From Methanofollis fontis (GTDB lineage: Archaea; Halobacteriota; Methanomicrobia; Methanomicrobiales; Methanofollaceae), in the NCBI RefSeq assembly GCF_004297185.1, contig NZ_PGCL01000007.1, forward strand, positions 1 through 59,488: a DNA stretch of 59,488 nt. The letters run 5' to 3'. The translations under genes and the position numbers were made by a program. Below are positions 29,807-37,909 of the stretch, in pieces (positions within the stretch are counted from its first letter, which is position 1; every line of letters starts with the position of its first letter). The notes under the pieces are model-generated. The model had not been told where the DNA came from. It saw only the letters and a list, made by a program, of their open reading frames with translations, and searched no databases.

Positions 29807-31894
29807 TCAGTTGAGGGTATAATCTGTAATCGATCCGGTAAACCAGATGGTATTTGATGGGTTATCCAGGTTCATCACACCATCTGTCCCTGGCATCAGG
29901 TTGGAGAGGGTGATCTCCTGATCGTCGTCGGTTCTGTCGATGATGGGAGTGCCGTCCACCCTGAAGTCTGTCCATTTCTCCTTTGAGGGTACGATCAGCG
30001 TGAGTGTCGATATGAGAGAGTCGTGGCTCCTGATGTAGATGCTTTTCATATTGCCGTTTTCTCTCTCGTCTCCGTTGATATACAGTGTTACATCGTTGTA
30101 GTTGAACTCTGAGATCATCTGGTCGATGATGTCGATATGGCCATTGCCCTCCTCTCCGATCTCAAGCCTGACGGTGTCACCGATAGAAAGGTCAAAACGT
30201 TCATTCTTGATTGATATATAGGAGTCGGCACCAGTCACCCTGAATTCCAGGTACCCTCCTTCTTCGAGATATCCGGGTTTTCCGTTTTCTGTGTTGAGCA
30301 GGGTGTCATGACCCGTGGCGGCTGCTGTGACCGTGATGTAACCTGCCTTTGTTTCGGTATCAGATCCGAAACAGTTCGTCGCAGTCAGCGCCACCGTATA
30401 GGTGCCGGCGTCGGTGTAGGTGTGGGTGGAGTTCTGTTCGGTGGATGTGGCGCCGTCCCCGAAGTCCCAGAGCCATGCGGTCGGGTGGCGGTCTGAGAGG
30501 TCGGTAAAGTTCACGGTCAGGGGTGCGTTGCCGCTCAGGACGTCGGCGCTGAAGGCCGCATCTGCCGGGCACCCGACAGGGGTGTAGGCGGCATGGTGTG
30601 CACTGACCTCCTGCGGGCTGAGGGCGGTGCTATAGATGGAGACGTTTGCGATCGAGCCATTGAACCATTTCTGGCGGTTGGCGTCTGAACCGATGTATAC
30701 CGGATCGGTGCTCGTCGTCAGGGTGCCGGTGAGTGATGTCGATGACTTCTCCTCGCCGTCCACATACAGACGCAGGGTGCTGCCGTCATAGGTGAGGGCG
30801 ATATGGTACCAGCGGTTCAGGGTGGGTCGTCCATCGTCCCAGTGGATGGTGGTCTTGCCCGATGCGGTGGTGACGCCGCCCTGCCAGCCCTGCCAGATGT
30901 CCAGGTCGATGCCGTGACCGTTCCAGTCCCGCTTTTCGATCACCTTTGCCGTGGCATATTCGGTCGGGTAGGCCCATGCCTCGTAGGTGACGGCGTCTGT
31001 GGGGTTGAGTCCGGCGCGGTTCGGGATGGAGACGCTGTCGCCGTCGCCGTCGAAGACCAGGTAGCCGCGGTTCGGGCAGGAGATCCAGGCGGCGCCGGTG
31101 ATGGTGCCGTCGTCGTCGTTCCCGCTCCTGTCATAGACGATTGTTCCGGACCCCTCGTCCATCGGCCAGAAGCCTTCGGTGACGGTTGGCGGACCGTTCA
31201 CGGTGATGGTCTGTGTGGTGGTGTCCTGTTCGCCGCCGCCGTTTCGTGCCGTGAGGCGCACCGTATACTCCCCGGCGGTCTCGAAGGTGTGGGTGGGATT
31301 CTGCTCACCTGATGTGGTGTTCTCGTCAAAGACCCAGTACCACCGGTCAGGTCCGCCTGTGGAGGTGTCGGTGAACGTCACCTCCAGGGGGGCGGTGCCG
31401 TTCAGCGGTGTTGCGGTGAAGGAGGCGATCAGTTCCTCCGGCGCATCTGTTTGTGTCGGCACCGCCGTCACGATCCCGTCATCCCCCACAAGGTGGAGCA
31501 CCCATCCGGTCCCGCCTCCACTGCCGCTGGCGGTGACCAGCACCCCATCGGGTTCGGGGTCGTTGCCCATCGCCAGGGTGAGCGTCTGCCCGTTCTCCCA
31601 GAGTGTCCAGTCCGTCGATCCGCTTTCGTCCACGAGATCGGCGGTCCGGTCCTGATCGTCCACATATACCACGAATGCGCCCCGCTCCAGCGGGTCGCCA
31701 CCGTCATGGAGGAGGACGAGGCGGTGGTCGCCGTCGGTGGTATTGTCAAAGGCCACGCTTGCAAGCATGGCCGGCGCCTCCTCTGCCGGGGGGTCTGAGA
31801 GGATGGCGACGCCGATGACCGTCACCCCCACCACCGATATGACGATCAGGGTGACGACGGCGATGAGTTCTGATGTTGCGGTGTCGTTCTGCAT
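29807..31894 (-). CDS. pilin-like surface protein with PKD-LamG-PKD domains
   Basis: The 695-residue protein starts like an archaeal type IV pilin (DUF1628): a short charged segment, then a hydrophobic helix (LIAVVTLIVISVVGVTVIGV, residues 10-29). After an N-terminal beta region come a PKD domain (about 155-240), a LamG/concanavalin-type domain (about 245-440, with WYHIALTYDGSTLRLYVDGE), a second PKD (about 455-535, WLWDFGDGATSTEQNSTHTY) and an unrecognised C-terminal domain of some 150 residues. PKD and LamG suggest carbohydrate or protein binding outside the cell. It is the last gene of a three-gene operon. Confidence 0.85.
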   Translation of the reverse strand: MQNDTATSELIAVVTLIVISVVGVTVIGVAILSDPPAEEAPAMLASVAFDNTTDGDHRLVLLHDGGDPLERGAFVVYVDDQDRTADLVDESGSTDWTLWENGQTLTLAMGNDPEPDGVLVTASGSGGGTGWVLHLVGDDGIVTAVPTQTDAPEELIASFTATPLNGTAPLEVTFTDTSTGGPDRWYWVFDENTTSGEQNPTHTFETAGEYTVRLTARNGGGEQDTTTQTITVNGPPTVTEGFWPMDEGSGTIVYDRSGNDDDGTITGAAWISCPNRGYLVFDGDGDSVSIPNRAGLNPTDAVTYEAWAYPTEYATAKVIEKRDWNGHGIDLDIWQGWQGGVTTASGKTTIHWDDGRPTLNRWYHIALTYDGSTLRLYVDGEEKSSTSLTGTLTTSTDPVYIGSDANRQKWFNGSIANVSIYSTALSPQEVSAHHAAYTPVGCPADAAFSADVLSGNAPLTVNFTDLSDRHPTAWLWDFGDGATSTEQNSTHTYTDAGTYTVALTATNCFGSDTETKAGYITVTAAATGHDTLLNTENGKPGYLEEGGYLEFRVTGADSYISIKNERFDLSIGDTVRLEIGEEGNGHIDIIDQMISEFNYNDVTLYINGDERENGNMKSIYIRSHDSLISTLTLIVPSKEKWTDFRVDGTPIIDRTDDDQEITLSNLMPGTDGVMNLDNPSNTIWFTGSITDYTLN

Positions 31895-31902
31895 TTTAAC
31901 CC

Positions 31903-32754
31903 CTATGTATCCAGCGTACCAAGCACAGATTGGTAGGCGATCACCGAGTTATTTATGTCATATACAATTGCTGTTACGGAAATCAGATCCCCATCGGCTC
32001 CTAGGTTTTCTGTGGTTTTTAAGGTGTGATTGTAATAGAAGGCCTCTGCCTCGCTCTGAGTCAGGTTCAGTGCAATGATATGTGAGGAGAGCTCGCCCTT
32101 GTTACTTTCTTTAAGATCATTATAATTGTAGATGGCCATATGGACGTAATGTGCAGAGGGTGTCGATATGTTTACGGAAAACGTAAAGTCCTTGCTTGCA
32201 TCTATGACATAGTTGTTCACGACGTCAGGACCAACAATCATCTCAGACGACGTTTCATTCTCTCCTCCTTCAGGCGTCACCGTCACCACCGGCCACGTCC
32301 CGGCCCCGCCCTCGTCCACAAACCCACCTGCGTCCACCGCTGCCGCCGCATATCGTGGTTCGGCGATCACCATTTCGCCCCCGCTTGAATCGACGACCGA
32401 GACCACCACGCGCTCGATCTGGGCGACGTCGCCTGTATAGGTGAGGTTCTCGCCGATCGACCAGATGCCGTCCCCGGAGAGGGTGAATTCATCGGTCCGG
32501 TCCTCAAGACCGCTCCCATTGTCCACATAGATCCGGTATTCCCCCTCCGAGAGGGTGTCGCCCCCCTCGTGGAAGAGCACGAAGGTGGTGTTGTCCGTCG
32601 AGGTCGCCGCTACCACGCTCACCCGCGGGACCTCGGCCGGCGGGGGCTGCGAGAGGATTGTCACCGCCACGATCGCCACACCAAGCACCACCAGCGAGAT
32701 CAGCAGCACGGCCCCGATCACCTCGGAGACGCCTTCTTCATAGATTCTGTCCAT
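31903..32754 (-). CDS. archaeal type IV pilin N-terminal domain protein
   Basis: The start at MDRIYEEGVSEVIGAVLL follows AGGTGA by five bases; the frame also has a GTG at 32763 and ATG at 32760. The motif EEGVSEVIGAVLLISLVVLGV is the classic archaeal pilin/flagellin-like segment: charged residues, cleavage before the hydrophobic assembly helix. The 283-residue body is beta-rich and shares its layout (VLFHEGGDTLSEGEYRIYVDN) with the next gene's N-terminal region, so the two are paralogous. A minor pilin or adhesin subunit is likely. Confidence 0.83.
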   Translation of the reverse strand: MDRIYEEGVSEVIGAVLLISLVVLGVAIVAVTILSQPPPAEVPRVSVVAATSTDNTTFVLFHEGGDTLSEGEYRIYVDNGSGLEDRTDEFTLSGDGIWSIGENLTYTGDVAQIERVVVSVVDSSGGEMVIAEPRYAAAAVDAGGFVDEGGAGTWPVVTVTPEGGENETSSEMIVGPDVVNNYVIDASKDFTFSVNISTPSAHYVHMAIYNYNDLKESNKGELSSHIIALNLTQSEAEAFYYNHTLKTTENLGADGDLISVTAIVYDINNSVIAYQSVLGTLDT

Positions 32755-32764
32755 CGTCATCACC

Positions 32765-33658
32765 TCACTCGATCAGGGATGCGGAGGTCGCAATGCTCAC
32801 CAGGTAATCGGCCCGCTCGGCCAGGAGGGTGACATGGTCGCTCCCATCGATCCGGATCCATGCAACCCCCGAACTCAGGGAGGACTCCGGGCTGACCTCA
32901 TACCATGCCGTCGGGATCCCTTCCCGCACTGGCGCCGCCGCAAACGCCCGCCGCCATGCCCGTGCCGTGCCTTCGTCACCGGTGTCGATCGAGATGTTCA
33001 CTGCACTGAACGTCCCGGTGATGTTTGCATAGGGAGGCATGTTCCGCAGACGGCTCTCGATCCGCACCGGTCCGGACCCGGCGAGAAGGGACGATCCCGT
33101 GATGTTCACCGGCGTGATCGAGACCGAGGCATTCCCGCCGGTATTGTAGACCGAAAAGGGCGGGGAAACCCGCACCGTCGTCCCGCCGGTCTGGGTGAGG
33201 AAGACGCCCCCCATCTCATAGGTCCAGGTCTGGTCCACCCAGTAGTTGTTCCCTGAGACATACTGGAGACTGCCGAGCGGTATTTCCTGTTCATCCGAAT
33301 CTGCCGTGATCGTGAGCACACTCCCGCCCGATGCGACGCTCACCGCCCCCGACGACCCCACCGGGGAGAGCAGGGGGATCGAGAGACCGCTCCCTGTCGT
33401 GGTCGCCGATCCGGACCCGAGGTCGAATGCCATCGAGAGGGTCACCCCGGTGGCATTGTTCACCCAGAGCGAGTCGAGGGCGATCTTGTAGTCGGTGAAC
33501 CGGTCCTTCACCAGGTTCATGTGCATGATCTCGTTCTCCCTCCCCTGCGCCGGGACCGCATAGACCTGATAGACGGAGAGGGCGAGCACGATCACGCCAA
33601 GGAGGAGGACGAATCCGACGACCTCGGACAGTGCCTCCTCGTCTCGGGGGGGTGCCAT
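32765..33658 (-). CDS. pilin-like secreted protein with N-terminal helix
   Basis: The start at MAPPRDEEALSEVVGFVLL gives 297 residues. DEEALSEVVGFVLLLGVIVLALSVYQVYAVPAQ is a pilin-like N-terminus; the body is Ser/Thr/Gly-rich and beta-like, with no domain recognised. No Shine-Dalgarno is seen and a TATA box ends about 25 bases upstream, so the mRNA is probably leaderless or nearly so. It is the first gene of the three-gene surface operon. Confidence 0.78.
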   Translation of the reverse strand: MAPPRDEEALSEVVGFVLLLGVIVLALSVYQVYAVPAQGRENEIMHMNLVKDRFTDYKIALDSLWVNNATGVTLSMAFDLGSGSATTTGSGLSIPLLSPVGSSGAVSVASGGSVLTITADSDEQEIPLGSLQYVSGNNYWVDQTWTYEMGGVFLTQTGGTTVRVSPPFSVYNTGGNASVSITPVNITGSSLLAGSGPVRIESRLRNMPPYANITGTFSAVNISIDTGDEGTARAWRRAFAAAPVREGIPTAWYEVSPESSLSSGVAWIRIDGSDHVTLLAERADYLVSIATSASLIE

Positions 33659-33683
33659 GATACGGGAAGTTTTTTTCCGGGCT

Positions 33684-33692
33684 GTATATATT
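33684..33692 (-). promoter_or_regulatory. TATA box of the pilin-like operon
   Basis: The minus strand reads GGAATATATACAGCC. The distance to the ATG at 33658 is about that from TATA to the start site, which implies a very short leader or none. Confidence 0.55.
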
Positions 33693-33783
33693 CCTTTCAG
33701 AATCACCACGCCTGCAGATGTGGATAATGTTAAGAAAGCGCCGGTTCATAGGTAGGGTAGAATAAAGTACGGGGAATGAAGAC

Positions 33784-34797
33784 GTGTCCGGATCCATAGA
33801 CCATACTACCCGTCTGGCGCGGGGCTGCGTCCTCTGTTATGAGGGCGCCAAGATGGTGCTGTTCGTGACCGGCAGGTGCGGGAGGAACTGCTGGTACTGC
33901 CCCATCTCTGAGAAGCGGCGGAACGGCGACGTGATGTATGCCAACGACCGGGTGGTCGCTTCTCCTGCCGACATCCTGGACGAGGCCGAGATGATGAGCG
34001 CCCGCGGCAGCAGCATCACCGGCGGCGAACCCTTCCTGGTGCTCGACGAGGTCGTCCATGCCTGCCGTCTCCTCAAGGAACACTTTGGGCCCGACCACCA
34101 CATCCATCTCTACACCGGCATCGCCCCCTCTGAGGAGCAGCTGCGTCCCCTCATCGGGTGTGTGGACGAGATCCGTCTTCACCCCCCGCAGGAGGAGTGG
34201 GGGCAGATCCTGGACACCCCCTTTGCAGAATCGGTGCAGACCGCCCGGAGACTCGGGTTCTCCGTTGGGTTTGAGGTGCCCTCCCTTCCCGGCATCGAGG
34301 CCCTCGGGGCGATCCTGCCCGACCTCGACTTCCTGAACATCAACGAACTCGAGTGGAGCGAGACCAATGCCGCCGCCATGCGTTCCCGGGAACTCGATCT
34401 CGAGGACGGCCTCCACAATGCCGTCGGTGGGGCCGCGGAGTGGGCCGCCCCCCTCCTCTCCGACGAACGGGTCCACCTCTGCACCTCATCCTTCAAGGAC
34501 TCGGTCCAGCTCAGGGAGCGGTTGAAACGGATCGCCCACAATACCGCCCGCCCCTTCGACGAGGTCACCGACGACGGGACGATCATCTACGGTCTCCTTG
34601 AACTGGAGGACGGGGCACTCCCCCCCGTTCTGGAGGCGGGGCGCAGGGAAGGTATTTATGATCTTGAGGTAGTGGGTAATCAGGTAGAGATGGCCTGGTG
34701 GGTGCTCGCCGACCTGAGGGACGACCTCCCCGGCAGAAAATCGGTCATCGAGCGCTACCCCAATGGAGGAATTATTCTGGAGGTGACGCCGCTCTGA
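33784..34797 (+). CDS. radical SAM protein of archaeal COG2108 type
   Basis: The 337-residue protein starts at GTG after GGGGAATGA. The radical SAM cluster cysteines are CGRNCWYC (Cys32, Cys36, Cys39), preceded by an extra CVLC pair at 15-18 that may bind a metal. SITGGEP near residue 77 is the SAM-contact motif. The reaction is not known for this archaeal family. It overlaps the cis-prenyltransferase gene as CTGA, so the two are co-translated, which ties this enzyme loosely to lipid carrier synthesis. Confidence 0.82.
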   Translation: MSGSIDHTTRLARGCVLCYEGAKMVLFVTGRCGRNCWYCPISEKRRNGDVMYANDRVVASPADILDEAEMMSARGSSITGGEPFLVLDEVVHACRLLKEHFGPDHHIHLYTGIAPSEEQLRPLIGCVDEIRLHPPQEEWGQILDTPFAESVQTARRLGFSVGFEVPSLPGIEALGAILPDLDFLNINELEWSETNAAAMRSRELDLEDGLHNAVGGAAEWAAPLLSDERVHLCTSSFKDSVQLRERLKRIAHNTARPFDEVTDDGTIIYGLLELEDGALPPVLEAGRREGIYDLEVVGNQVEMAWWVLADLRDDLPGRKSVIERYPNGGIILEVTPL

Positions 34798-35555
34798 ATC
34801 TCAGGGAACAGATCGAACCGTTCTATGAACGTTACCTGCGCTGGCAGTGCAGGCAGATTCCCGATCATATCGCCATCATCATGGACGGCAACCGCCGCTA
34901 TGCCCGCATGCTCGGCGCCGGCACCATCACCGGACACCGGGCCGGTGCGGAGACGACGACGCGGGTGCTCGAATGGGCGCAGGAACTCGGGATCAGGACG
35001 ATCACCCTCTACTCCTTCTCCACCGAGAACTTCAGGAGGGACCGGGAGGAGGTGGCATATCTCTTCGAGCTCTTCAAGGAGAAGTTCATCTCGATCCTCA
35101 GCGACGAACGCGTGCACAAAAACCATATCAGGGTGCAGATGATCGGCGACCGCTCGATGGTCCCCGCCGACCTCCTCCAGACGATCGAGGAGGCCGAGGC
35201 GGCGACCCGCCATTACAGCCGTTTTTTCCTGAACATTGCCCTTGCATACGGGGGGAGAAACGAGATGGTCCACGCCGCCCGGCGGGTCGTGGAGGGTGTG
35301 CGTGACGGGCAGATCGACCCGGCGTCCATCACGCCCCGCACCGTGGAGGACTACCTCTATGACGGCATCCATCTGCCGCCGGTGGACCTGATCGTCCGGA
35401 CCGGCAATGAACGGCGGACCTCGAATTTCCTGCCGTGGATGGCGAACGGGAACGAGTGTGCGGTCTATTTCTGTGCACCTTACTGGCCGCTCTTCAGGAA
35501 GATCGACCTGTTGCGTGCGATACGGGTCTACGACCAGCGCCTGCGGTCGGCCTGA
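34794..35555 (+). CDS. uppS: cis-prenyltransferase, catalytic subunit (UppS/DHDDS type), apparent CTG start
   Basis: The family makes long-chain polyprenyl diphosphate, the precursor of dolichyl glycosyl carrier lipids. The catalytic motif IIMDGNRRYA is at residues 28-37 (Asp31), with SFSTENFRR near 80, and RTGNERRTSNFLPWM near 200. The protein stops at YDQRLRSA with no C-terminal RxG motif. GGAGGTGA at 34779-34786 is seven bases before CTG at 34794; the only standard start in frame, a GTG at 34698, would add 32 unrelated residues inside the upstream gene. From CTG the protein has 253 residues. Confidence 0.88.
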   Translation: MNLREQIEPFYERYLRWQCRQIPDHIAIIMDGNRRYARMLGAGTITGHRAGAETTTRVLEWAQELGIRTITLYSFSTENFRRDREEVAYLFELFKEKFISILSDERVHKNHIRVQMIGDRSMVPADLLQTIEEAEAATRHYSRFFLNIALAYGGRNEMVHAARRVVEGVRDGQIDPASITPRTVEDYLYDGIHLPPVDLIVRTGNERRTSNFLPWMANGNECAVYFCAPYWPLFRKIDLLRAIRVYDQRLRSA

Positions 35556-36146
35556 TCACGCCCCGAACCGGCGTTTTCGTGCCGCATAATCCCTCAATGC
35601 CCTGAGAAAATCGATTTTTCTGAACTGTATCCAGTTTACGTCCAGGAAGAAGAACTCCGAGTAGACCGATTGCCAGATCAGAAAGTCGGTGAGATAGTTG
35701 CCGCCGGTCTTGATCACCAGGTCGGGTGCGCACCTGAAGGTGAGGTGACGTTCGATCACCTCTTCGTCGATCTCCCCGGGCTCGATCCCCTCGGCGGCGA
35801 TCCGCCGGATCGAATCGGTGACCTCGTCCCGCCCGCTCTTCCCGACGGCGACGGTCACCAGCATTCCCTTCCCACCGGTCTCCACCCGGTCGCCGATATA
35901 GAGGTGGAGATTGGCGTTCTCTGATATCTGTTGGATCTGGGGGATATATGGCTCGATCCGGGCGGGATCGTCGGTCGAGATATGGAATGTGACGCTTGAA
36001 AGCCCCACCTCCCGGCACCAATCCGCCACCTCGACGATCCGCGCCGGGGCGCCGGTCATGTCCTCCTCGGTGATCATAAAGCAGATATGTTCGGGAAGGG
36101 AGGTGAGGCGCCCCTGAAGCATCCGCTCATACAGCCAGCGGATCAT
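35556..36146 (-). CDS. non-catalytic cis-prenyltransferase paralogue (NgBR/Nus1-like subunit)
   Basis: The 196-residue protein aligns end to end with the cis-prenyltransferase fold: LPEHICFM (17-24) matches the strand before the catalytic loop, and IKTGGNYLTDFLIWQSVYSE (about 143-162) matches the RTGNERRTSNFL region. But the catalytic MDGNRR is replaced by MITEED, so the essential Asp is lost. It ends RKRRFGA, keeping the RxG motif (Arg193, Gly195) that the neighbouring UppS lacks. Its stop abuts the uppS stop (convergent, TGA|TCA) and its start overlaps polX as ATGA. A heteromeric partner is the best reading. Confidence 0.85.
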   Translation of the reverse strand: MIRWLYERMLQGRLTSLPEHICFMITEEDMTGAPARIVEVADWCREVGLSSVTFHISTDDPARIEPYIPQIQQISENANLHLYIGDRVETGGKGMLVTVAVGKSGRDEVTDSIRRIAAEGIEPGEIDEEVIERHLTFRCAPDLVIKTGGNYLTDFLIWQSVYSEFFFLDVNWIQFRKIDFLRALRDYAARKRRFGA

Positions 36147-37828
36147 TCATCCGCCCTCAGAAGCGCCGAAAGGGGGCGGGTGTTCAGGATGTCGGACGGA
36201 CCGCACCAGCCGCGTCTGGCCAGGGCGACGCCATAGCGCATCGCCTCAAGGTCGCTTCGCCGGTGTGCATCGGTCCCGATCGAGAGGTTCACGCCCTGTT
36301 CTTTTGCCTGCCTGATATAAATATCATCGAGATCGAGTCTGGCCGGCGAGGCGTTGATCTCCAGTGCGGTCCCCGTCGCCGCCGCCGCATCGATGATCCG
36401 GTCCATATCGACGGCGGTGGGGGGTCGACGGCCGATGAGGCGGGCCGTGGGGTGGCCGATGATGTCGACGTGCTCGTTCTCGATCGCCACGATCATCCGT
36501 CTGGTCATGGTGTCGGCGTCCTGCCCGAAGGCCGTATGCACCGATGCCACCACCAGGTCGCATGCCTTCAGGGCGGTATCAGGGAGGGAAAGATGGCCGT
36601 CGGCCAGGATGTCGACCTCGATGCCGGCGAGCAGGGTGCAGGCGGCGTTCCGGTTCACCCGCTCGATCTCATGCCGCTGCCGCTCCAGGCGGGCGGCATC
36701 GAGGCCGTGCGTCACCCCGATCCCGGCGGCATGATCGGTGATCAGGATATACTCATACCCCTTCTTCTCCCCTTCGTCGGCGATATCCGGAAGCGAAAGC
36801 GTGCCGTCGCTCCACTCCGAGTGCACATGCAGGTCGCCCCTGATCGCACCCGCATCCACCAGGTCGGGGAGTCGCCCCTCCAGTGCATACTCCACCTCGC
36901 CCCGGTCCTCCCTGAGTTCGGGCGGCACCGGCACCATCCCGAGGGCCCCGAACACCCCCTCCTCGGTCGGGAAGGTCCGCACTTCCCCGCTCTCCCGCAT
37001 CAAGAGGCCGTATTCGTTCAGCCGCATCCCCTGTTCTGCGGCAATACCCCTGAGCCTGATGTTGAATGCCTTTGAACCGGTGAGATAGAGCAGCATCGTC
37101 CCCAGTTCGGCGGTATCAGCGTACCTGATATCGGCCCGCCGCCCCTCGATGCGGACCGAGGTCTTCCGCTCCCCCTCGTCGATCATGCTGTCGGCAATCC
37201 GTCTGAGCGCCCGGTTCGTCTCTCCCGGTGGTGCAGTGGTGACGATGTCGATGTCGCCGATGGTGGAGCGCCCCCGGCGGAGGCTTCCGGCCACCCACGC
37301 CTCTCCCGGTATCGCCGCCATCAGCACCGCAGCACGCCTCTTTGCCCCGGAGACATCCATCCTCTCCGTCATTTTTCCGGCGGTTTCTGCGGCCCTGAGG
37401 ATGTCGCTTTCCTTCTTTGCCCCGAATCCCTTCAGGGCCCTGACCCGCCGGTTTCTGGCGGCGGCGATCAGGCTGTCGGTATCCTCCACCCCGAGTTCGG
37501 TCCAGAGGCGCCGCACCGTCTTCGGGCCGACGCCGGGCAGGTCGAGGAGAGGGATCAGCCCGGGCGGGGTCGCATCGATCAGCCGCTCCCGCTCGGTGCA
37601 GGTGCCGGTCTGGACGATCTGATGTATTTTGCCTGCAAGTGCCCGGCCGATCCCGGGGATCGCCTCGAGTTCCTCCTCGGTCAGGTCGCCGACCGGCCCG
37701 GTGAGGTGGCCGATCCGGTCTGCCGCCGCCATATATGCCCTGACCTTGAACCGGTTCTCGCCCTGCACCTCCAGCAGCTGCCCGATCTCCTCCAGGACCC
37801 GGGCCACCTGCCGGTTGGTCATCTCCAT
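36143..37828 (-). CDS. polX: DNA polymerase X family with PHP domain (PolX)
   Basis: PolX performs gap filling and 3'-5' exonuclease trimming in repair. Order seen: N-terminal helix-hairpin-helix repeats (AIPGIGRALAGKI, LPGVGPKTVRRL), the polymerase palm with GSLRRGRSTIGDIDIV (Asp pair), then a PHP domain from about residue 325 with HVHSEWSDGTLS and later ITDHA, HPTAR and GTDAHRRSD motifs. The start is probably at 37828 or two codons later; no clear Shine-Dalgarno is seen. The 561-residue length is normal. It is co-transcribed with the non-catalytic prenyltransferase subunit. Confidence 0.93.
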   Translation of the reverse strand: MEMTNRQVARVLEEIGQLLEVQGENRFKVRAYMAAADRIGHLTGPVGDLTEEELEAIPGIGRALAGKIHQIVQTGTCTERERLIDATPPGLIPLLDLPGVGPKTVRRLWTELGVEDTDSLIAAARNRRVRALKGFGAKKESDILRAAETAGKMTERMDVSGAKRRAAVLMAAIPGEAWVAGSLRRGRSTIGDIDIVTTAPPGETNRALRRIADSMIDEGERKTSVRIEGRRADIRYADTAELGTMLLYLTGSKAFNIRLRGIAAEQGMRLNEYGLLMRESGEVRTFPTEEGVFGALGMVPVPPELREDRGEVEYALEGRLPDLVDAGAIRGDLHVHSEWSDGTLSLPDIADEGEKKGYEYILITDHAAGIGVTHGLDAARLERQRHEIERVNRNAACTLLAGIEVDILADGHLSLPDTALKACDLVVASVHTAFGQDADTMTRRMIVAIENEHVDIIGHPTARLIGRRPPTAVDMDRIIDAAAATGTALEINASPARLDLDDIYIRQAKEQGVNLSIGTDAHRRSDLEAMRYGVALARRGWCGPSDILNTRPLSALLRADE

Positions 37829-37909
37829 AGATGGAGGTGGTCGGCATGCCCTATAGGCCTGACGGGGTGGCGGTGCAGGGAAGCAAATCCATAAGACCGC
37901 CCACTCCAA

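Follow-up and report, generated by a model that had tools for sequence, protein, structure and literature searches.

Two convergent cis-prenyltransferase genes of Methanofollis fontis very likely encode the catalytic and non-catalytic subunits of one heteromeric enzyme

Within the window (the whole stretch of DNA that was analyzed, 59,488 nucleotides of Methanofollis fontis contig NZ_PGCL01000007.1), two genes of the cis-prenyltransferase (cPT) family face each other tail to tail, and it is very likely that together they encode a single heteromeric enzyme. We read the two genes in this way because the motifs of their products are complementary, because they are the sole family members in the genome, and because the two types co-occur 1:1 in related genomes; from these features we infer the complex, the transverse position of the small subunit's tail, the activity and the product. 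Heteromers of this kind have been described in archaea before, which makes the present one less novel than first thought. What is new here is the 1:1 pairing throughout the phylum, the conservation of the convergent junction, and features that hint at a shared origin with human NgBR (NUS1).

The catalytic (large) subunit of 253 aa is encoded on the plus strand (34794-35555; PF01255, 2.3e-69), from a CTG start at 34794 to a TGA stop at 35553-35555. The non-catalytic (small) subunit of 196 aa is encoded on the minus strand (35556-36146; PF01255, 1.1e-26), from an ATG start at 36146 to a stop at 35558-35556. Direct reading confirmed the abutting stop codons of the original prediction, which form the junction TGATCA (35553-35558) without any spacer. 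Upstream of the large-subunit gene lies a gene encoding a radical SAM protein (33784-34797, plus strand; PF04055, 1.1e-9), the TGA stop of which overlaps the CTG start (CTGA), and upstream of the small-subunit gene lies a gene encoding a PolX family DNA polymerase (36143-37909, minus strand; NF006375 PolX, 1.8e-146), the stop of which overlaps the ATG start (ATGA). Since each cPT gene is the second of an overlapping pair, the locus probably comprises two operons facing tail to tail. The radical SAM gene adjoins the catalytic cPT gene across the order Methanomicrobiales and is also found upstream in several other families, and this coupled protein may have a role in the modification of polyprenyls or lipids. 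PolX adjoins the small gene in only part of Methanomicrobiales. Elsewhere in the window, three adjacent genes encoding archaeal type IV pilin-like proteins were observed on the minus strand (29807-33709), one of them with PKD and laminin-G-like domains.

The large subunit apparently starts at a CUG codon overlapping the upstream stop (window 34779-34797). A Shine-Dalgarno-like sequence, GGAGGTGA (34779-34786, plus strand), is located 7 nt 5' of this codon, and a similar context is kept in relatives. In 11 loci of relatives (L012, L013, L032-L036, L045, L092, L094 and L114), no in-frame ATG, GTG or TTG was present before the first conserved helix, so that CUG is the only plausible start there; in the window, a GTG lies 96 nt upstream of the CTG as well.

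The protein encoded by the large gene carries the catalytic motif D31-G-N-R-R (34884-34898, plus strand; Asp31 codon at 34884-34886) within IIMDGNRRYA and terminates in VYDQRLRSA, which bears out the earlier claim of a plus-strand protein with MDGNRR that ends in QRLRSA and lacks RxG. The residues D31, N33, R34, R35, H48, S76, N79, R82, E86, R202, R208 and S210 are all present, with D26, N28, R30, H43, S71, N74, R77, E81, R194, R200 and S202 as the E. coli UppS equivalents. Nearly all of these are invariant among 23 large subunits drawn from across the phylum, and the equivalents of D26, N28 and R30 are invariant in 23 of 23. DGNRR was found in 160 of 161 distinct large-protein relatives, the sole exception being a fragment at a contig end. 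We also considered that RxG might be missing from all large subunits in any form, and rejected this: in 11 of the 161, an R-x-G tripeptide occurs close to the C-terminal end, apparently never in the canonical register. Beyond the last conserved helix, the tail of the large proteins is unconserved and ranges from 2 to 84 residues. A model of the large subunit built from the family alignment had a mean pLDDT of 90, and a fold search with it gave human DHDDS (TM 0.87 by query length) and bacterial UppS as the best matches, with 35-38% identity to several UppS in the structure alignments.

The protein encoded by the small gene has CFMITEEDM where the large protein has MDGNRR, and its C-terminus reads RKRRFGA, as described for the minus-strand paralogue in the original prediction. 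In the alignment, MITEE (36063-36077, minus strand) replaces the catalytic MDGNR, with Thr26 at the position of the catalytic Asp, and the terminal RxG motif is R193-F194-G195 (35562-35570, minus strand). The protein has two large deletions and has lost about 57 residues relative to the large-type protein, and both the H43 segment (E. coli UppS numbering) and most donor-site residues are lacking. None of 167 small-protein relatives has DGN, and 163 of them have a C-terminal RxG; RRxG (R241, R242 and G244 in E. coli UppS numbering) is kept almost without exception in the family. An alignment of 43 sequences has 29 invariant columns, which cluster in the C-terminal half. The nearest named relatives are proteins of Methanofollis, with 65-72% identity. 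A model from the family alignment reached a pLDDT of 84, with an unsure segment at 152-164, and in a fold search it matched NUS1 and UppS alike (TM about 0.6 to both), with no clear preference. Two departures from the usual gene were observed. In family f15 (L221, L222), the small subunit is shortened to open frames of 164-168 aa that still end in RRFG. In L225 (G325:C1:2055464-2056120:-), a single in-frame TAG interrupts the small-subunit frame, and coding sequence continues on either side of it; this is the only small gene with an internal stop among those listed, and the TAG is possibly a pyrrolysine codon or the mark of a disrupted gene.

The complementary motif split that had been proposed for the window pair thus recurs in the two families and is not a product of chance. 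Homodimeric bacterial UppS, which the large subunit resembles in fold and active site, combines Asp and RxG in a single chain, whereas in Methanofollis these are split over two chains and neither protein has both. We propose that the catalytic center resides entirely in the large subunit, where Asp31 would serve Mg2+ and the donor diphosphate, Arg34, Arg35 and Arg82 would bind the donor, and Arg202, Arg208 and Ser210 would bind IPP. Ending before an RxG tail, the large subunit should be unable to complete the active site of a partner. The small subunit would be a pseudo-enzyme that has lost Asp, the His43 segment and most of the donor site and has kept the dimer-interface half and RRFG. In the heterodimer, its RRFG tail would be expected to reach over the interface to the large subunit and close the active site there, as the NgBR tail does on DHDDS. 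The loss of catalytic residues and of about 57 residues would also fit a small gene that is a functionless, decaying copy of the large gene, yet this is extremely unlikely in view of its retention in 181 of 185 genomes of the order, its 29 invariant columns in 43 sequences, and a clade as old as the phylum, which shows that it is not a recent copy.

To describe the distribution of the pair, genomes of the order and of the phylum were surveyed. The Methanofollis fontis genome (98.5% complete) has only these two PF01255 genes. Exactly one small gene was counted in 181 of 185 Methanomicrobiales genomes (family profile A1, E below 1e-40), and both genes are absent from the same 4 of the 185. A large gene without a small gene was found in none of the 185. 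Only a small gene was seen in two genomes (90% and 84% complete), both of them incomplete: just 205 nt of contig remain beyond the small gene of G061, and G067 is 84% complete. G050 and G165 were considered as small-only genomes and rejected, both having fragments of a large gene. The co-occurrence survey suggested with the original prediction therefore came out in its favor. Across the phylum, PF01255 members occur in 294 of 296 genomes, almost always as exactly two genes, and nearly all of these genomes give a strong small-type match. Family f12 lacks both genes: no PF01255 gene was found in G190 and G198, two f12 genomes of a single genus that are each 91% complete, which suggests that this genus is a lineage without this cPT family. 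In a maximum-likelihood tree, all small proteins form one clade (98/99) and all large proteins another (98/93). Since both clades are phylum-wide, the pair is as old as the phylum and the split is ancestral, and a recent duplication within Methanofollis was rejected.

The two proteins might instead be independent enzymes, the large one an active homodimer and the small one with another role, for example as a regulator or a lipid-binding protein. MM_0014 of Methanosarcina mazei is an active homodimer that lacks RxG and has a TLGG tail (PMC8131916); the window large subunit lacks RxG as well, though MM_0014 is only distantly similar to it (47 bits by sequence). Loss of RxG alone is therefore no proof of partner dependence. 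The location of the two genes in separate, opposed operons also speaks for independence, and this location counts against the heteromer, as do the out-of-register R-x-G in some large relatives, the unsure segment of the small-subunit model and the failure of its fold search to favor NUS1 over UppS. Nevertheless, we consider independence unlikely: the strict 1:1 co-occurrence of large and small genes extends through order and phylum, the parts retained by the small subunit are precisely the interface half and the RxG tail, and the two M. mazei proteins MM_0618 and MM_1083 are described in PMC8131916 (citing Emi et al. 2019) as a heteromeric cPT with C45-50 products. The statement on an M. mazei heteromer in the original prediction was accordingly right. 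The Methanofollis pair resembles MM_0618/MM_1083 in that two cPT paralogues would form one enzyme for the glycosyl carrier lipid. In the genomes of f8, the family that most likely holds Methanosarcina, there is one gene of each type, orthology with the M. mazei pair being assigned by family membership; the two genes are unlinked within 5 kb in the f8 loci read, whereas those of Methanofollis are convergent neighbors.

Judged from sequence, the heteromer is the better supported reading, the motif split, the sole family members, the 1:1 pairing and the near-invariant residues all being as predicted. As for its product, we favor a medium-length polyprenyl diphosphate, most likely the precursor of the polyprenyl or dolichyl phosphate carrier for N-glycosylation, because a gene for an STT3/AglB-type oligosaccharyltransferase is present in the genome and no other cPT is. 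That the heteromer makes some other cis-prenyl product is distinctly unlikely. Archaeal cPTs can indeed give unusual products, as MM_0014 does by O-prenylation and head-to-middle condensation (PMC8131916), but the absence of a further cPT and the presence of the STT3 gene both point to the N-glycan carrier, and the chains made by the M. mazei pair match the length of the cell's glycosyl carrier according to the same paper.

A tail-to-tail order with abutting or overlapping stops is an unusual layout for the subunits of one enzyme. We agree with the original prediction on this point, and found that the order is in addition conserved, occurring in 80 of 82 loci with both genes linked on one locus, a number that includes near-identical loci of close relatives. 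Convergent loci make up 59 of the 60 linked loci in Methanomicrobiales and 21 of the 22 in other families. The intergenic distance ranges from overlapping coding frames up to 2.8 kb; in 46 loci among those listed, the stops lie at most 40 nt apart, abut or overlap. At L005, L009, L041, L047-L053, L057, L067 and L173, the two genes share 13 to 54 nt at their 3' ends, and at some overlapping loci the RxG codons of the small subunit are antisense to the variable tail of the large subunit. Such antisense 3' ends are a possible reason why the tail-to-tail order has been kept. Outside the order, about 21 of some 55 sampled genomes have the genes linked, the others having them unlinked within the range read, and the acidic proteins of some linked families give these a haloarchaeal look. 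Convergent loci outside the order almost always lack the radical SAM and PolX neighbors, so the convergent junction outlives its surroundings.

The pair was further compared with human DHDDS/NgBR, in which the RxG tail of NgBR crosses into the active site of DHDDS and completes both substrate sites (PMC7573591). The division of labor is alike, with an active subunit that lacks RxG and an inactive subunit that has it. D34, R37, R38, R85, R205, R211 and S213 of DHDDS match the invariant residues of the large subunit, and these equivalents line both substrate sites (PMC7573591). Like the small subunit, NUS1 has an 'ITE' in which Thr takes the place of the Asp, and the two share a deletion of 13 columns: LPVHMGLVITEVEQEP of NUS1 aligns with LPEHICFMITEEDMTG of the window small protein, and in both proteins the deletion follows. 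The human proteins also carry parts that the archaeal ones do not. The Methanofollis large subunit is without the C-terminal helix-turn-helix of DHDDS, and the small subunit has no N-terminal transmembrane extension like that of NgBR, its open frame being exactly 196 aa with no extension upstream.

When the N-terminal half of the small profile was compared with all solved structures, DHDDS (1.7e-4) and NUS1 (4.9e-4) came first, before every bacterial enzyme. With the full small profile the match spans nearly all of NUS1 (50 bits), whereas with the large profile it is confined to the C-terminal part of NUS1 (28 bits). In the tree, human NUS1 has an end branch of 4.9 and joins Rv1086 at 92/73, a branch too long for the tree, and the clade of small proteins plus NUS1 has an AU p of 0.218. 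The topologies small+NUS1, NUS1+DHDDS, small+Rv1086 and DHDDS+large were all unrejected by the tree tests, and the deletion of the same dispensable segment in NUS1 and the small subunit could have arisen twice. We therefore offer only as a tentative idea, somewhat less probable than its opposite, that the small subunit and NgBR/NUS1 descend from one ancestral pseudo-subunit, that the human heteromer is an archaeal inheritance, and that the tail-to-tail order is ancestral in part of the archaea.

An Archaeoglobus fulgidus heteromer was reportedly described in 2022. The human counterpart DHDDS/NgBR is a disease-linked enzyme pair, and the NUS1 mutation R290H hits the activation step by the RxG tail. 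The archaeal pairs are soluble and single-copy, which makes them suitable for studying how a partner is activated by the RxG tail, and they bring the origin of NgBR within reach of a test. It is misleading to annotate the two genes as independent 'UppS', and, as far as the gene sequences indicate, nearly every genome in the phylum probably uses a split, two-chain enzyme for its glycan carrier lipid.
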